DNA from: Comamonadaceae bacterium
GTDB taxonomy: Bacteria; Pseudomonadota; Gammaproteobacteria; Burkholderiales; Burkholderiaceae_C
NCBI GenBank assembly: GCA_027488735.1
Contig: JAIYBB010000012.1
Coordinates: forward strand, 1 to 64,000
Direction of reading: 5' to 3'
DNA length: 64,000 bases
Each line of letters begins with the position of its first letter. Position 1 is the first letter of the stretch. Below are positions 27,597-41,161 of the stretch, piece after piece. The position numbers and the translations under genes are program-made. The notes beneath the pieces are model-generated. The model ran no database searches. It was not told the origin of the DNA and worked only from the letters and a program-made list of their open reading frames with translations.

Positions 27597-30500
27597 TCAG
27601 TGCGAAAGCTGAGCCCATACTTTTTCCAACCGCTTCACACTCACTGGCTGCGGCGTTCTCAGTTCTTGCGCAAAAAAGCTGACGCGCAGTTCCTCCAATA
27701 GCCACCTGAACTCCAGCATGCGCGCGTCGGTCTGGCCTTTGCGCTCAGCCACCAGCCGCCAGTACTTTTGCTCCAGCGGTTTCAGCTCGGTCAATCGCTG
27801 TGCGTCACGCGCAGGGTCGGCGCGGTATTTTTCCAGCCGCAAGCTGATGGCTTTCAAGTAGCGCGCGCCATGTTGTAACTGCGGCCACGGGGTGGCAGCC
27901 AGAAAGTTTTTCGGCAACAAGCGTTGCAGTTGCTGGGTGCAGTCGGCTGTAGCATCCGGTGCGTTTTTCGTGTCTTTGATTTTTCGCTGCGCCTGCGCAA
28001 ATTCGCTCAGCACGCCCAGCGCCAAGCGCGCCACTTCGTTGGCTATCAAGGTCAAGCGCCCGCGCCCCTCGTCAATGCGGCGCTTGAAGCTGGCTTCATC
28101 GTTCGGCAAGGGTTCGAGCAAAAACGCGCGGTCTAACGCCACGTCAACGATTTGCGCTTTCAACTCGTCGGCGCTTCCCAACTGCATATAGGCCACGGCC
28201 ATTTTTTGCATATCGGGAATATTTTTCTCAAGGTACTTGAGCGCGTCTTTGATTTGCAATGCAAACAAGCGGCGCAGTCCGGCGCGGTTTTTGGCGGCAG
28301 CGACATCGGGCTCGTCAAACACTTCGATACTGACCGCGTCGCCCAAGTCGACTAAGGCGGGGAAACCGATGAGGCTTTGTCCGCCTTTGCTGATTTCCAT
28401 CAGTTCAGGGAGCTCGCCGAAGGACCAGGTGGTGTGGCGTTGCGGGGTAATGGCTTTCTTCAAAAAATTGGGGTCAGAGCCCTCAGCGAAATTGGTGTCA
28501 GAGCCCGAGTTTTGCTTTGCAAAATCGGGATCTGACCCCAAATTCGCGTCCCTGCTCGAACTCTTGGGAAAATCGGGATCTGACCCCAATTTCTCAGCAG
28601 GAGAAGCCAACTTCAAACCGGCCAACGCCTGAAACGCGCCTCTGGCCTTAGAGCCCAATTCCGCTTTCAACGCGCCCAGGTTTCTGCCCTGCCCCAGTTG
28701 CCTTCCGTGTTCGTCCACCACACGAAAGTTCATGAAGAAATGCGCGCTCAACATATCTAGCTTGAAGTCTGTTCGTTTGATGTCCAGGCTGGTTTCATCA
28801 CGGGCTTTTTTCAACAACACGTCGGTCAAACCGCCCGAACCAAACACCTCGGGCGCAGACAACTCAACAGCCAAGCGCGCGGCGCTCTCAGGCAGCGGCA
28901 CAAACCGGCTGCGCGGTCGCTGCGGCAGGCTTTTCAGCAACGCTTGTATCTTGTCTTTCAACATGCCGGGCACCAGCCACTCTGCGCGTTCTTCGCTCAC
29001 CTGGTTCAACACAAACAAAGGCACGGTCACGGTCACGCCGTCTTTGGTGTCGCCCGGCGCGTGCAAATATTGCGCGGCGCAATCCACACCGCCTAAACGC
29101 ACCATCTTCGGAAACGCCTGCGCGGTGATGCCCACGGCTTCGTGCCGCATCAGCGATTCGCGCGTCATCAGCAAGGGTTCGCTGTTGTCGCCAGCTTCGC
29201 GACGACGGCGGCTCTCGTCTCGGTGCCAGCGCTCCAAGCCTTTGCAATTGCACACATCCTCAGGCAACCACTGTTCGTAAAACGCCTGAATCATGCTGTC
29301 GTCCACCAACACGTCTTGACGGCGCGACTTGTGTTCCAAGTCCATCACTTGCGCGATGAGTTTTTTATTCGCTGCCATGAACGGCAACTCGGTTTGCCAC
29401 TGCGCTTCCACCAAGGCTTGCTGTATGAATATTTGCCGGGCCAGCACCGGGTCGGCTTTGGCAAACGGCACTTTGCGTCCGCTGTAAATCACCAAGCCAT
29501 AAAGCGTAGCCCGCTCGAACGCCACCACATCGCCGTGCTTGGCTTCCCAATGCGGGTCGAGCAATTGTTTTTTCAGCAAATGCGCGCCGGCCTGCTCCAG
29601 CCACACGGGTTCGATGTTGGCAATGCCGCGCCCGAACAAACGCGTGGTCTCCACCAACTCGGCGCAGACCAACCACTTGCCGGGTTTCTTCTTCAAATGC
29701 ACGCCCGGGTGGCGGTAAAACTTGATGCCGCGCGCGCCCAAGTAAATGTCTTCTTCGTCTTGCCTGCAGCCTATGTTGCCGAGCAGCCCGGTCAACATGG
29801 ATTGGTGCAATTGTTCGTAGCTGGCAGGCTTGTCGTTCATCGCCCAGCGCTGCTCGTTCACCACGGTCAAAAGTTGCGAATGCACATCACGCCACTCGCG
29901 CCAACGTCGTATGTTGATGAAGTTTTGCCGCAACAGGTTTTCATGCTGGCGGTTGCTGAGTTTGTGTGTCGCACCAGTTGCGCTGGAAGGCCCATGGCTT
30001 GGGGCTTGCTTGGCTTGCACTGGTGAAGTTTTGCTAGCAGCAGCTTCTGTTTGGACCGTGGATGCGCTGCCGCCGCCACGCGAAGCTTCCAGCCATTCCC
30101 ACAAGCGCAAATAGCCGCTGAATTCGCTTTTGTCGTCTTTGAATTTCGCATGCGCTTGATCGGCTTGTGTTTGCGCTTGCAGCGGTCGATCGCGCACATC
30201 TTGCACACTCAGCGCCGAGGCGATGATGAGCACCTCTCTCAACGAGTGCAACTCTCGCGCCGCCAAAATCATGCGCGCCACACGCGGGTCCAAAGGCAAT
30301 TTGGCCAATGTTTTGCCTATGGGCGTGAGGCTGTTGTCCTCATACACGGCGCCCAATTCGGTAAGCAATTGAAAACCATCGGCAATGGCCTTGGGGCGCG
30401 GCGCTTCCAGAAACGGAAAGTCGGCCACGTCGCCTAAATGCAGCGACATCATGCGCAAGATCACCCCGGCCAGCGAACTGCGCAATATTTCCGGCTCGGT

Positions 30501-31742
30501 GAAACGCGGTCTGCCGTTGAAATCTTTTTCGTCGTACAAGCGAATGCAAATACCGTCTGCGACACGGCCACAGCGACCGGCTCGCTGGTTCGCTGCCGAT
30601 TGGCTGATCGGCTCGACCAGCAACTGCTCTACCTTGCTGCGAAAACTGTAACGCTTGACGCGCGCCAGACCCGCGTCGATGACAAAACGAATGCCCGGCA
30701 CTGTCAGCGAGGTTTCGGCGACGTTGGTGGCCAGCACGATACGCGGTGCGCCACCGGTCTCAAACACGCGCTCTTGCTCGGCTTGCGTGAGCCGCGCGAA
30801 CAGCGGCAGCACGTCCACGTGGCGGGTGTATGCGTTGTGCGACAAGTGACCGCGCAAGTGTTCGGCGGCTTCGCGTATCTCGCGCTCGCCCGGCAAAAAC
30901 ACCAGAATGTCGCCGCGCGGCGAGCCGCTCCACAGTTCATCTACGGCATCTGATATGGCGTTGCCTGTGTCGTATTCGCGGCTTTCTTCCCAAGGGCGGT
31001 AACGCATTTCCACCGGGAAGGTGCGGCCTGAGACCATCAGCACCGGCGCCGGTCCTTTGGCGCTGGCGAAATGCTGTGAAAAGCGATCGGCATCGATCGT
31101 GGCCGAGGTGATGATGATTTTTAAATCGGGGCGGCGTGGCAATATTTGCTTGAGATAACCCAGCAAGAAGTCAATGTTCAGACTGCGTTCGTGCGCCTCG
31201 TCAATGATCAGCGTGTCATAGGCCAGCAGCAAGGGATCGGTTTGCGTCTCGGCCAGCAAGATGCCGTCGGTCATCAGCTTGACCGAAGCGTCGCGCGACA
31301 ACTTGTCTTGGAAACGCACTTTGTAACCGACCACGTCGCCTAAGGGTGTTTTCAGCTCCTCGGCGATACGTTTGGCCACCGAGGTGGCGGCAATGCGGCG
31401 GGGTTGCGTGTGGCCGATGATTTGGCGGCGTTTGCGTAAATTAGTGTCAGAGCCCGAGAAATTGGGGTCAGATACCGATTTTGTTTGCTTCGCAAAAAAA
31501 TCGGTATCTGACCCCAATTTCTCTATCGCCCAACCACCTCGCCCCAAAGCCAGTGCCATTTTGGGTAATTGCGTGGTTTTGCCCGAACCGGTTTCGCCGC
31601 AAACAATGACCACCTGATGCGCTTGAATCGCCGACATGATGTCGTCGCGGCGGACACTGACCGGCAGGTCCTCGGGGAATTCAATCGTTGGGCGTGGGTT
31701 TGGCGATGTCACGGAGAATATTATCCCACGACACATATTCAC
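27597..31742 (-). CDS. hrpA: ATP-dependent RNA helicase HrpA with in-frame repeat insertions
   Basis: A 1381-residue DEAH-box helicase, against roughly 1300 in E. coli. Walker A GETGSGKTT lies at 49-57, Ia GHTQPRR at about 110-116, DEAH near 170 (IIDEAHERSLN) and QRAGRCGR near 390. The HA2/OB region and the long HrpA-specific C-terminal domain (ending KVWAQLSH) follow. HrpA rescues stalled ribosomes and remodels mRNA. Two segments rich in G-S-D-P/T-x-F, at about 75-102 and 1047-1093, are encoded by REP-like palindromes. The GTG start at 31740-31742 lacks a clear ribosome site, so a GTG ten codons later is also possible. Its 5' end abuts the toxin-antitoxin promoter. Confidence 0.93.
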   Translation of the reverse strand: MNMCRGIIFSVTSPNPRPTIEFPEDLPVSVRRDDIMSAIQAHQVVIVCGETGSGKTTQLPKMALALGRGGWAIEKLGSDTDFFAKQTKSVSDPNFSGSDTNLRKRRQIIGHTQPRRIAATSVAKRIAEELKTPLGDVVGYKVRFQDKLSRDASVKLMTDGILLAETQTDPLLLAYDTLIIDEAHERSLNIDFLLGYLKQILPRRPDLKIIITSATIDADRFSQHFASAKGPAPVLMVSGRTFPVEMRYRPWEESREYDTGNAISDAVDELWSGSPRGDILVFLPGEREIREAAEHLRGHLSHNAYTRHVDVLPLFARLTQAEQERVFETGGAPRIVLATNVAETSLTVPGIRFVIDAGLARVKRYSFRSKVEQLLVEPISQSAANQRAGRCGRVADGICIRLYDEKDFNGRPRFTEPEILRSSLAGVILRMMSLHLGDVADFPFLEAPRPKAIADGFQLLTELGAVYEDNSLTPIGKTLAKLPLDPRVARMILAARELHSLREVLIIASALSVQDVRDRPLQAQTQADQAHAKFKDDKSEFSGYLRLWEWLEASRGGGSASTVQTEAAASKTSPVQAKQAPSHGPSSATGATHKLSNRQHENLLRQNFINIRRWREWRDVHSQLLTVVNEQRWAMNDKPASYEQLHQSMLTGLLGNIGCRQDEEDIYLGARGIKFYRHPGVHLKKKPGKWLVCAELVETTRLFGRGIANIEPVWLEQAGAHLLKKQLLDPHWEAKHGDVVAFERATLYGLVIYSGRKVPFAKADPVLARQIFIQQALVEAQWQTELPFMAANKKLIAQVMDLEHKSRRQDVLVDDSMIQAFYEQWLPEDVCNCKGLERWHRDESRRRREAGDNSEPLLMTRESLMRHEAVGITAQAFPKMVRLGGVDCAAQYLHAPGDTKDGVTVTVPLFVLNQVSEERAEWLVPGMLKDKIQALLKSLPQRPRSRFVPLPESAARLAVELSAPEVFGSGGLTDVLLKKARDETSLDIKRTDFKLDMLSAHFFMNFRVVDEHGRQLGQGRNLGALKAELGSKARGAFQALAGLKLASPAEKLGSDPDFPKSSSRDANLGSDPDFAKQNSGSDTNFAEGSDPNFLKKAITPQRHTTWSFGELPELMEISKGGQSLIGFPALVDLGDAVSIEVFDEPDVAAAKNRAGLRRLFALQIKDALKYLEKNIPDMQKMAVAYMQLGSADELKAQIVDVALDRAFLLEPLPNDEASFKRRIDEGRGRLTLIANEVARLALGVLSEFAQAQRKIKDTKNAPDATADCTQQLQRLLPKNFLAATPWPQLQHGARYLKAISLRLEKYRADPARDAQRLTELKPLEQKYWRLVAERKGQTDARMLEFRWLLEELRVSFFAQELRTPQPVSVKRLEKVWAQLSH
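28462..28595. repeat. Cluster of four REP-like units inside hrpA (C-terminal part)
   Basis: Four related units of about 20-28 bases: two read ATTGGGGTCAGAGCCC or ATTGGTGTCAGAGCCC on the plus strand, and two read ATCGGGATCTGACCCCAA in inverse orientation. The inner pair forms an imperfect hairpin around TTTTGCTTTGCAAAA. All keep the hrpA frame open and encode LGSDPDF, SGSDTNF and EGSDPNF. Confidence 0.9.
31438..31523. repeat. REPIN-like palindrome inside hrpA (helicase core)
   Basis: A single degenerate unit (ATTAGTGTCAGAGCCC) is followed by a perfect 27-bp inverted repeat with arms at 31456-31482 and 31497-31523. The 14-base centre itself contains TTTGC-TTC-GCAAA. It falls between the Walker A and Ia coding regions and adds about 30 residues in frame. 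Confidence 0.92.
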
Positions 31743-31784: not shown

Positions 31785-32048
31785 ATGGCCAATCTCACCA
31801 TTTCCCTGGACGAAAACCTCGTCAAACAAGCGCGCATCAAAGCCATACAAGAAGGCACCTCGCTCAGCGCCAAGGTGCGCGAAATGCTGGCGGCTTATGT
31901 GCGGCAAGATGCACCCTTAAAAGCTGCAGTCATCCCCAAGCTGCCTACTGGCGGAAGTGGCGGCCTGATGCCGGGTATAGACCCTAGCAGCAACCGATCC
32001 TTTTATGATGCCATGGATGCCGACGTAGACATGCTGAAGCTCAAATGA
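31785..32048 (+). CDS. Ribbon-helix-helix antitoxin (VapB-like)
   Basis: An 87-residue protein. The first 45 residues (ANLTISLDENLVKQARIKAI...REMLAAYV) match the beta-strand plus two-helix DNA-binding fold of CopG/RHH antitoxins. The C-terminal 40 residues, rich in Gly, Pro and Asp, would wrap the toxin. The stop overlaps the toxin start by 4 bases. GCGGAG stands upstream of the ATG. It would neutralise the PIN toxin and repress its own promoter at 31737-31765. Confidence 0.88.
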   Translation: MANLTISLDENLVKQARIKAIQEGTSLSAKVREMLAAYVRQDAPLKAAVIPKLPTGGSGGLMPGIDPSSNRSFYDAMDADVDMLKLK

Positions 32049-36153: not shown

Positions 36154-37170
36154 TCAGCGCTTGATTGATTGAGAAATTTGGTCGTACGCCGCTCCATCGG
36201 CGAAATGCTCTTCATTGGCTTTGCCCCAGCCACCAAAGGCTTTTTCAATCGTGAACAAAGGCAGCTTGGGTAATGTTTTTTCAAACTTTGCCTTGATCTT
36301 TTCGTTGATCGGCCGGTAAAAGTTTTTGGCAGCGATCTCTTGACCTTCATCGCTGTATAAGTACTGCAAATAGGCTTCGGCCACTTTGCGGGTACCTTTG
36401 CGATCAACGTTTTTATCGACCACTGTCACCGGTGGCTCAGCCAGAATGCTGATGGATGGATAAACAATATCCACCTTAGAACCGAATTCTTTTTCTAGCA
36501 AATACGCTTCGTTTTCCCAAGAAATAAACACATCGCCTTGGTTACGCTGGGCAAAAGTCACAGAAGAACCGCGTGCACCGGAGTCAAGAATTGGCACGTT
36601 GGTAAACAACTTGGTGACGAATTCTTTGGCCTTGGCGTCGCCACCGTATTTGCGTTTGGCAAACTCCCAAGCGGCCAAATAATTCCAACGCGCTCCACCA
36701 GAGGTTTTGGGGTTAGGTGTGATGACTTTGATACCAGGCTTGATCAAATCGTCCCAATCTTTGATGCCTTTGGGGTTGCCTTGACGCACAACCAAAACAA
36801 TGGTGGACGTATACGGCGAAGAGTTGTGTGGCAAACGCTTTTGCCAGTTAGGTGGAATCAAGAACGCTTGCTTATTCAATGCATCCACATCACCGGCCAA
36901 AGCCAGTGTCACCACATCTGCATCCAAGCCGTCAATCACTGAGCGTGCTTGTTTGCCAGACCCTCCGTGCGATTGTTTGATGGTGACATCTTGCCCGGTG
37001 GTAGATTTCCACTGCTTGGCGAAAGCGGCATTGAACTCGACATACAACTCACGAGTCGGGTCGTATGACACATTCAACAAGCTCACTGGGCTTTGTGCAT
37101 AGCTAATGAGCGCAATGGCAGAGAACAGCCCCGCGAAAATGTTCTTTGTCAATAAACGTCTGTTCTTCAT
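36154..37170 (-). CDS. sbp: Sulfate ABC transporter substrate-binding protein (second copy)
   Basis: A 338-residue periplasmic sulfate-binding protein. A signal peptide (about 1-26) is followed by [13 protein letters not shown] and [24 protein letters not shown], typical of Sbp/CysP. It lies downstream of cysA after a 193-base gap with its own palindrome, so it can be expressed separately. It shares the same family pattern with the copy at 40160-41161 but differs clearly in sequence, so it is an old paralogue rather than a recent duplication. Confidence 0.93.
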
Positions 37171-40159: not shown

Positions 40160-41161
40160 TCAACGGACCGTGTACAGTTTGTCGAAAAAACCACCGTCAT
40201 TGAAATGTATTTTTTGTGCTTCAGTCATAGAGCCAAAAAAATCTGAGACCTGAAACAGTGTGATGGGCTTGAATTGCTGAGAATATTTTTTCAGCACTTG
40301 CATATGGCGCGGGCGCATCGCATGTTTGGCGGCAATTTCCTGCGCCTCCTCGCTGTACAAATAATCCAAGTAGGCTTTGGCTAATTCACCGTTGCCTTTT
40401 TTGGCAGTGCTGCGCTCCACCACTGCGACGGGGTTCTCAGACAAGATACTGATAGCGGGGTAAATAGCATCAACTTTGCCAATGCCAAATTCTTTGTCCA
40501 CAGACAGAACTTCAGATTCAAATGTGATGAGCACATCACCGATATTGCGTTGCAAGAAAACATTGGTGGCATCTCTGCCACCCTTGGCCAGCACAGGCAC
40601 ATTGGCATAGAGTTTTTTCACATAGGCTTGTGCATCAGCGTCGGAACCGCCTTTTTTGCGCACCTGGCCCCAAGCCGCCAAATAAGCCATTCGCCCATTT
40701 CCTCCAGTTTTGGGGTTGACCAAAATGACCTGAACGCCTGGCTTGATCAAATCGTCCCAATCTTTGATGCCCTTAGGGTTGCCGTTTCGGGTCAAGAACA
40801 ACATGGTTGAAGTTGTTGGTGAAGCATTGTTGGGGAATTTTTTGTTCCAATCTTTGGACACCACGCCGGTGCCCGCCAAAAAATCAATGTCGGAGGCCGT
40901 GTTCATGGTCACCACATCGGCATCTAAACCGTCATTGACCGCCCTGGCTTGGGCACTTGATCCACCATGCGATTGATCTATCTTGACATCAATGGACTTG
41001 GTTTTTTTGTAATGTGCAACAAATGCAGCGTTGTAATCTTTGTAAAACTCACGCGATACATCGTAGGAAACATTGAGCAAAGTTTGTGCATTGGCCATGA
41101 TTGATACAAAGAACACACCACCAAATAAGACCTGCTGCGCCAGAAGCTTTTTAGAAAACAT
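40160..41161 (-). CDS. sbp: Sulfate ABC transporter substrate-binding protein (first copy)
   Basis: A 333-residue periplasmic protein with a signal peptide (about 1-25; FFVSIMANA). LLNVSYDVSREFYKDYN and [21 protein letters not shown] are the sulfate-ligand motifs. It is the first gene of the import operon, divergent from tauE. Having a second Sbp at the other end of the operon suggests two ligands or affinities (sulfate, thiosulfate, possibly sulfonates). Confidence 0.94.
   Translation of the reverse strand: MFSKKLLAQQVLFGGVFFVSIMANAQTLLNVSYDVSREFYKDYNAAFVAHYKKTKSIDVKIDQSHGGSSAQARAVNDGLDADVVTMNTASDIDFLAGTGVVSKDWNKKFPNNASPTTSTMLFLTRNGNPKGIKDWDDLIKPGVQVILVNPKTGGNGRMAYLAAWGQVRKKGGSDADAQAYVKKLYANVPVLAKGGRDATNVFLQRNIGDVLITFESEVLSVDKEFGIGKVDAIYPAISILSENPVAVVERSTAKKGNGELAKAYLDYLYSEEAQEIAAKHAMRPRHMQVLKKYSQQFKPITLFQVSDFFGSMTEAQKIHFNDGGFFDKLYTVR

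Follow-up and report, generated by a model that had tools for sequence, protein, structure and literature searches.

The hrpA gene and its repeat-bearing loops

The window, a 64,000-nt stretch of a contig from a Comamonadaceae bacterium, carries on its minus strand the gene for the ATP-dependent RNA helicase HrpA, whose product scored 1454.2 bits against TIGR01967 (cut-off 722.75). The palindrome at 31438-31523 in this gene is a two-unit REPIN with a degenerate third unit, lying in frame. We also detected a second cluster of four REP units in hrpA (28465-28595, residues about 1053-1100), which was absent from the sequence-only reading of this DNA. The features are as follows.

27597..31742, minus strand: hrpA, ATP-dependent RNA helicase HrpA, 1381 aa, host of the insertions (TIGR01967)
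31425..31535, minus strand: loop A, residues 70-106, between the Walker A helix and motif Ia, with the REP-derived insert (alignment)
31438..31458, plus strand: third REP unit of site A, degenerate (direct-repeat family D2; PWM 18.1 bits)
31456..31485, plus strand: arm 1 of the site A REPIN, REP unit (inverted-repeat search; PWM 36.6 bits)
31494..31523, minus strand: arm 2 of the site A REPIN, REP unit (inverted-repeat search; PWM 36.6 bits)
29964..30077, minus strand: loop C, residues about 556-593 (alignment; pLDDT)
28431..28619, minus strand: loop B, site of the second REP cluster, spanning residues about 1042-1104 (alignment; RNA fold)
28465..28485, plus strand: outer REP unit of site B (direct-repeat family D2; PWM)
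28489..28544, minus strand: 56-bp stop-free coding REPIN of site B, NLGSDPDFAKQNSGSDTN (sub-type search)
28563..28595, minus strand: outer REP unit of site B, read as KLGSDPDF (repeat families D3 and I5; PWM)

The sequence-only reading had described a perfect 27-nt inverted repeat with a degenerate third unit inside the open hrpA frame, and each element of that description holds: arm 31456-31482 is the exact reverse complement of arm 31497-31523, 31438-31458 is a member of family D2, and the ORF at 27597-31742 stays open through the palindrome. The inverted repeat can be extended to 30 nt (31456-31485 and 31494-31523; 97% complementary, 8-nt spacer). The RNA of 31430-31530 was predicted to fold at -53.3 kcal/mol (z = -11.8; 0 of 200 shuffles equally good), which places a hairpin near codon 75 of the hrpA mRNA, and that of site B (28460-28600) at -71.2 kcal/mol (z = -7.1). 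In an alignment with E. coli HrpA, for which a structure has been solved, 2 residues stand opposite the 37 of loop A. Residues 1-760 were also modelled; the predicted structure, which is of moderate quality (mean pLDDT 56.7) and served for loop confidence only, gave pLDDT values below 50 for residues 69-105 and 558-592, as for several other segments. Loop C contains no REP in this genome, and some relatives carry REPs there in other frames.

Adjoining hrpA on the plus strand, an ORF at 31786-32048 and another from about 32045 onward resemble, by eye, a ribbon-helix-helix-like and a PIN-like protein, and look like a small toxin-antitoxin pair. A 113-nt repeat (36722-36834 and 40725-40837; 72% identity), whose first copy lies in a substrate-binding-protein-like ORF (by eye), probably reflects paralogous genes.

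The REP family and its RAYT gene

The sequence-only reading had proposed a genome-wide search for the repeat, and the REP core TTGGGGTCAGA was found in 34 copies in the 2.5-Mb genome, with 0 for a reversed control. With the longer unit (up to 2 mismatches), the genome gave 56 matches and the control 2; some of the 56 are one palindrome counted from both strands. From 30 aligned copies we derived a consensus unit, the imperfect palindrome (T/A)AATTGGGGTCAGA(T/C)NCC(A/G)ATT, in which neither a terminal GTAG nor a terminal CGTC tetranucleotide is present. A position weight matrix was built on 29 of the 30 fetched copies, leaving out a core match in a lysine/alanine-rich ORF (L025) that looks like chance. 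At a threshold of at least 14 bits, the matrix gave 196 matches in HrpA ORFs and 0.8 per codon-shuffled set, the 196 being counted on both strands without de-duplication in 61 genus and 65 named ORFs that are partly the same genes. Taken with the exact arms and the 34 cores against none in the reversed control, this excess rules out a chance repeat.

A single match to PF01797 (Y1-type transposase) was identified in the genome. Its 232-aa product scored 81.1 bits against NF047646 (REP-associated tyrosine transposase), narrowly above the cut-off of 80, and contains HVH and Y motifs by eye. One REP lies about 45 bp downstream of this RAYT gene, and further REPs lie upstream, past a thioredoxin-like ORF (by eye). 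The link to REP-type transposases that the sequence-only reading had suggested agrees with the protein match and with the repeats on both sides of the gene. The copies beside the RAYT gene and the in-frame copies in hrpA belong to one DNA family, and the interpretation of the palindrome as a REPIN is supported. Within the genus, PF01797 was matched in 47 of 61 genomes, with a single match in 41 of the 47.

Exact REP units number 29 in this genome, including 4 in hrpA and 2 in metG. Sixteen other genomes hold 100 further exact copies (1-17 each), of which 22 are in hrpA, 6 in metG, 1 in icmF and 71 elsewhere, so that, over all 17 genomes, an in-frame position within a gene is taken by 35 of the 129 exact units (26 in hrpA, 8 in metG and 1 in icmF). 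Copy number is therefore in the tens, against the hundreds usual for REPs, and two genomes (G003 and G056) have just two exact copies each, one beside the RAYT gene and one in hrpA. For the 71 copies elsewhere (60 stretches, 69 clusters, 16 genomes), a crude in-frame test, which recognised 2 of 3 known sites of our own genome, called none of the 69 in frame; in 7, the flanks looked coding and shared one phase but were separated by a stop. Long open frames running through REPs elsewhere looked, by eye, to lie upstream of the start codon or antisense. In this genome, a 467-aa ORF at C9:142579 (L296) takes its stop codon from a REP at its 3' end (RLKKLGSDTN, then stop). A plasmid or phage vehicle was considered and rejected, as the site B REPIN had no match in the one plasmid collection searched and the site A REPIN had none in the one phage collection searched.

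Loops, reading frames and turnover of HrpA inserts

The hosts are freshwater Limnohabitans-like Comamonadaceae. An hrpA search matched 58 of 61 genus genomes, 55 of which were analysed (G013, G033 and G060 were left out), with loop A visible in the hrpA fragments of 51 genomes, loop C in 46 and loop B in 43. We found 71 REP units (PWM at least 14 bits) in 23 of the 55 genomes, every one inside these three loops, which, inserts included, make up 15.8 of 197.8 kb (8% of the gene). Loop A holds 36 units, loop B 30 (near residue 1050) and loop C 5 (near residue 570); 68 were placed by anchors, and the other 3 are in loop A of G055, where the contig starts inside the loop. Loop A measures 15-65 residues where a REP is present and 4-39 where there is none, and several of its REP-bearing copies are single or decayed units. 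The comparison with relatives suggested by the sequence-only reading showed that their HrpA proteins lack the loop A insert or have a shorter or different one.

The same DNA unit is translated in several ways. The 71 units use four of the six possible frames: (+0) in 33 cases, (-2) in 30, (+1) in 4 and (-1) in 4, read as KLGSD(P/T)DF, SGSDPNF, IGVRSQL-like and NRDLTPI-like peptides, respectively. The (+2) frame (NGGQIPI) was seen in one Rhodoferax (L181), and the sixth frame, TCTGACCCC with an obligatory TGA, in 0 of the 71 genus HrpA units. Loop C of three genomes (G010, G040 and G056) holds units of the extragenic type, whose terminal TAA goes unread in the frames used. As one DNA unit yields different peptides, protein-level homology is excluded as the cause in place of DNA insertion. 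In line with this, the insert was not encountered without its palindrome in distant HrpA proteins, the finding that the sequence-only reading had named as contrary to a DNA origin: loops without units differ, and the unit recurs in other frames.

Across eight species pairs, dN/dS was 0.033-0.073 for the hrpA core and 0.213-0.723 for loops A and B, whose alignment is uncertain. The strong purifying selection on the core argues that the gene is needed and translated, which rules out a pseudogene or an untranslated hrpA. On these substitution rates the loops are loosely constrained, and from the open frames and the constraint we infer that the insert is translated. Domestication of the palindrome as a linker, which the sequence-only reading suggested, is at most a possibility, given the rapid evolution of the loop and the absence of the insert from many relatives.

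Changes in REP presence were counted on a quick tree built from 54 HrpA cores, with the loop columns left out. Their minimum number was 10 for loop A (present in 18 of 51 genomes), 5 for loop B (12 of 43) and 4 for loop C (4 of 46). A fewest-changes count cannot separate gain from loss, so an old insertion with repeated loss or remodelling may explain part of this pattern. The variable dinucleotide of the hrpA copies was found among the other copies of the same genome in 17 of 26 cases, against 7.1 after shuffling (p = 0.0005), and 11 of 19 distinct variants matched their own genome, against 4.7 (p = 0.001); 9 of the 26 hrpA copies were without their own genome's variant, and the shuffle test ignores phylogeny. 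Moreover, the site A REPIN shows 0-1 differences in 62 bp among four genomes (G000, G023, G035 and G044), with a core pS of 0.335 between G000 and G044 and 0.536 between G000 and G023; the probability of no synonymous change in the element is about 0.005 and 5e-5 for these pairs. Such near-identity would fit recent replacement of the whole element at once, or selection acting on the hairpin.

A different repeat, GTCATTGCGAGCGAAGCGAAGCAATC (palindromic by eye), fills loop B or C of four genomes (G006, G024, G036 and G038; L066, L082, L112 and L111) with a VIASEAKQS-type peptide. Two distinct repeat sequences in the same HrpA loops favour permissive loops over a special role of one peptide. An HSERSEEAQ stretch in the uvrA of G058 (L102) is somewhat similar to the VIASEAKQS repeat.

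Other host genes and explanation of the inserts

The element is also open in frame in genes other than hrpA, namely metG, uvrA, icmF and, as a single REP unit, lipB (G022). In-frame copies occur in metG of eight genomes (G000, G007, G015, G021, G023, G035, G044 and G069), in uvrA-like genes of six (G004, G048, G056, G058, G059 and G077; site visible in 78 of 84 genomes) and in icmF of three (G013, G021 and G079). In this genome the metG insert lies between the anticodon-binding and tRNA-binding domains. One member of each host gene was identified by family models and the others by sequence likeness, and the analysis leaves out the second element of G425 (C16) and a longer uvrA match in G068. 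In two further similar stretches, a REP is open within one ORF in G051 (L231) and interrupted in G022 (L281); the 963-aa ORF of G051 had no Pfam or NCBIfam match, may be spurious and was left out of the counts.

A stop-free sub-type of 56 bp, encoding KLGSDPDFA(K/Q)QNSGSDPN or a variant, was sought with the inner part of the 56-bp REPIN in 84 genus genomes. It was found at 38 places, 4 of which lacked the REP core and were attributed to chance; the remaining 34 were all in frame (34/34; hrpA, 23; metG, 5; uvrA, 4; icmF, 2), some of them decayed. None was found outside genes in the 84 genomes searched, and none of 16 extragenic REPINs had this structure. The stop-free arm GGGGTCAGANNCCGA(T/G)TTT occurred at 92 places in 61 genomes (43 exact, 49 with one mismatch). 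All 43 exact arms lie in hrpA, metG, uvrA, icmF or lipB, as do 28 of the 49 one-mismatch arms; the other 21 are mostly at gene edges or intergenic, with a few running into ORF starts, which indicates that near-relatives of the stop-free arm exist elsewhere.

Beyond the genus, 9 of 399 family genomes searched (6 of them of the genus) were matched, comprising 2 genus members and 7 genomes in five other genera. Four of the other genera carry the element in the reading frame of MmeI-type DNA methyltransferase genes (L396, L398, L401 and L404), where it is read as GSDPDFAQQNSGSDP or a near variant; these genes are a possible vehicle between genera. At L397, L402 and L403 the match is to a variant (GACCACG) that is situated either at the end of an ORF or not within any long ORF, so confinement to coding frames is a feature of the genus, as far as searched, and not of the family. 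We offer only tentatively, at slightly less than even odds, the stronger proposal that one REPIN lineage now lives obligately in coding frames. Its 56-bp element, free of stops and symmetric between strands, would always encode the same GSDP peptide, copy itself between permissive loops of a handful of nucleotide-handling proteins (HrpA, UvrA, MetG and IcmF, possibly with MmeI-type methyltransferases as vehicle between genera) and be without extragenic copies in the genus.

Our main reading, to which we assign a probability of roughly 0.85, is that RAYT-linked REPINs insert into, or convert between, permissive protein loops and persist there as nearly neutral, translated selfish DNA. In this reading the palindrome is a REPIN of the genome's own RAYT-linked REP family, situated in a variable and probably disordered HrpA loop. 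The element is apparently mobile, and its copies may be spread by the RAYT, the putative mobilising enzyme, or by gene conversion between copies. Their survival would be limited to places where folding tolerates a hydrophilic G-S-D-P peptide about 20-40 residues long, and the copies that persist would be nearly neutral selfish DNA and not a functional domain. Both strands of the imperfect palindrome read GSD(P/T) in the favoured frames, so that either orientation, or any dimer, gives a similar linker, and this symmetry would pre-adapt the REP unit to coding frames. A selfish DNA element thus seems to have been built into its host's own proteins as a floppy loop.

Three other explanations were weighed. 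A single ancient insertion into hrpA, inherited vertically and then remodelled or lost after mobility had ended, would account for the loop flanks common to several clades (GGW or SW before, KPKRRQ after). We consider it improbable, because the same 56-bp unit is present in three other genes, many hrpA variants match other copies of their own genome, and units occupy three loops in several frames; furthermore, the insert is present in G043, whereas in the closely related G001 and G009 the loop is 5 residues long.

Alternatively, the hairpin may be kept for a function, slowing or stalling ribosomes early in the mRNA so that HrpA feeds back on its own message. E. coli HrpA rescues collided ribosomes (Campbell et al. 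2025, as cited in PMC13159725), and this role, the great predicted stability of the hairpin near codon 75 and the near-identity of the site A REPIN between four species that have diverged strongly at synonymous sites all speak for the idea. Against it, a loop A REP is present in just 18 of 51 genomes, several of which have one unit only or decayed ones, the element also occurs in metG, uvrA and icmF, and other hrpA copies lie 3 kb downstream, which together make such a role very unlikely. That so strong a hairpin occurs in the mRNA of a helicase with this E. coli relative is part of what makes the locus of interest.

The least probable explanation, that the GSDP-rich peptide is a selected functional module such as an RNA- or protein-binding linker, draws on the shared peptide frame of most hrpA, metG, uvrA and icmF copies and of the MmeI-type proteins, but is opposed by the IGVRSQL, NRDLTPI or NGGQIPI readings of the same DNA in hrpA, by the contrast in dN/dS between loops and core, by the many relatives without the peptide and by the VIASEAKQS repeat that fills the same loops.

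REPIN/RAYT systems have reportedly been described by Bertels and Rainey and by Nunvar, and the study of intragenic GTAG/CGTC REPs is said to be that of Di Nocera. The family described here shares with known REPIN/RAYT systems the inverse pairing of short palindromic units and a Y1-type transposase gene bordered by the repeat (PMC3116915 and PMC2817692). It differs in that no GTAG is found at the unit's end and in its location: described REPs are mostly extragenic, with 14 of the 1,067 most-abundant 16-mers of SBW25 overlapping genes (PMC3116915), whereas the proportion of exact units in frame in genes here is the 35 of 129 given above.

Intragenic REPs are already known. GTAG/CGTC REPs and their dimers, contributing 20-30 aa, lie in uvrA, RNA helicases, tRNA synthetases and other genes, as in our genomes, with flexible linkers or loops proposed as the tolerated places; a site is shared in Xanthomonas recB, and the sites are otherwise different (PMC3733652). 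By comparison, the present REPs belong to another family without the GTAG/CGTC tag, the same loops are reoccupied genus-wide, and frame use and constraint have been measured. Rickettsia palindromic elements, given as about 150 bp long and from Rickettsia, are palindromic mobile elements that are translated in frame in unrelated genes (PMC10969869 and PMC3733652). The elements here are apparently mobile palindromes, open in frame in unrelated genes and putatively translated; by description they differ in being 56-62 bp long and RAYT-linked and in having extragenic relatives in the same genome. The best reading, by analogy, would be that the coding REPIN works like a Rickettsia palindromic element and is not to be filed as one. 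The open-access literature searched yielded no description of in-frame copies of this REP family, including in Limnohabitans. As far as that literature goes, what is new is another REP family, the reoccupation of three loops over a genus, the measurement of frame use and constraint, and a stop-free sub-type that is coding-only in the genus.

These observations make the intragenic life of REP-type elements as selfish DNA measurable, since dozens of related genomes share the loops, the units are read in several frames, close relatives differ in whether a site is empty or filled, and there is one candidate transposase. They also show that linkers in housekeeping enzymes arise repeatedly from repeat DNA.

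Two further variable places were noted in HrpA. Longer insertions occur near residue 228 in L109, L110, L068 and L104 (G049, G057, G008 and G058) and near residue 275 in L071, L107, L084 and L097, measuring 33 and 57-72 residues, respectively, without a REP match at threshold; the former contains GGSDPHE, perhaps a decayed REP unit. Finally, two MAG records titled Bordetella parapertussis and Rickettsia typhi (L148 and L152) carry HrpA sequences 83-84% identical (best segment) to the Limnohabitans-like HrpA of the window, and these titles look wrong.
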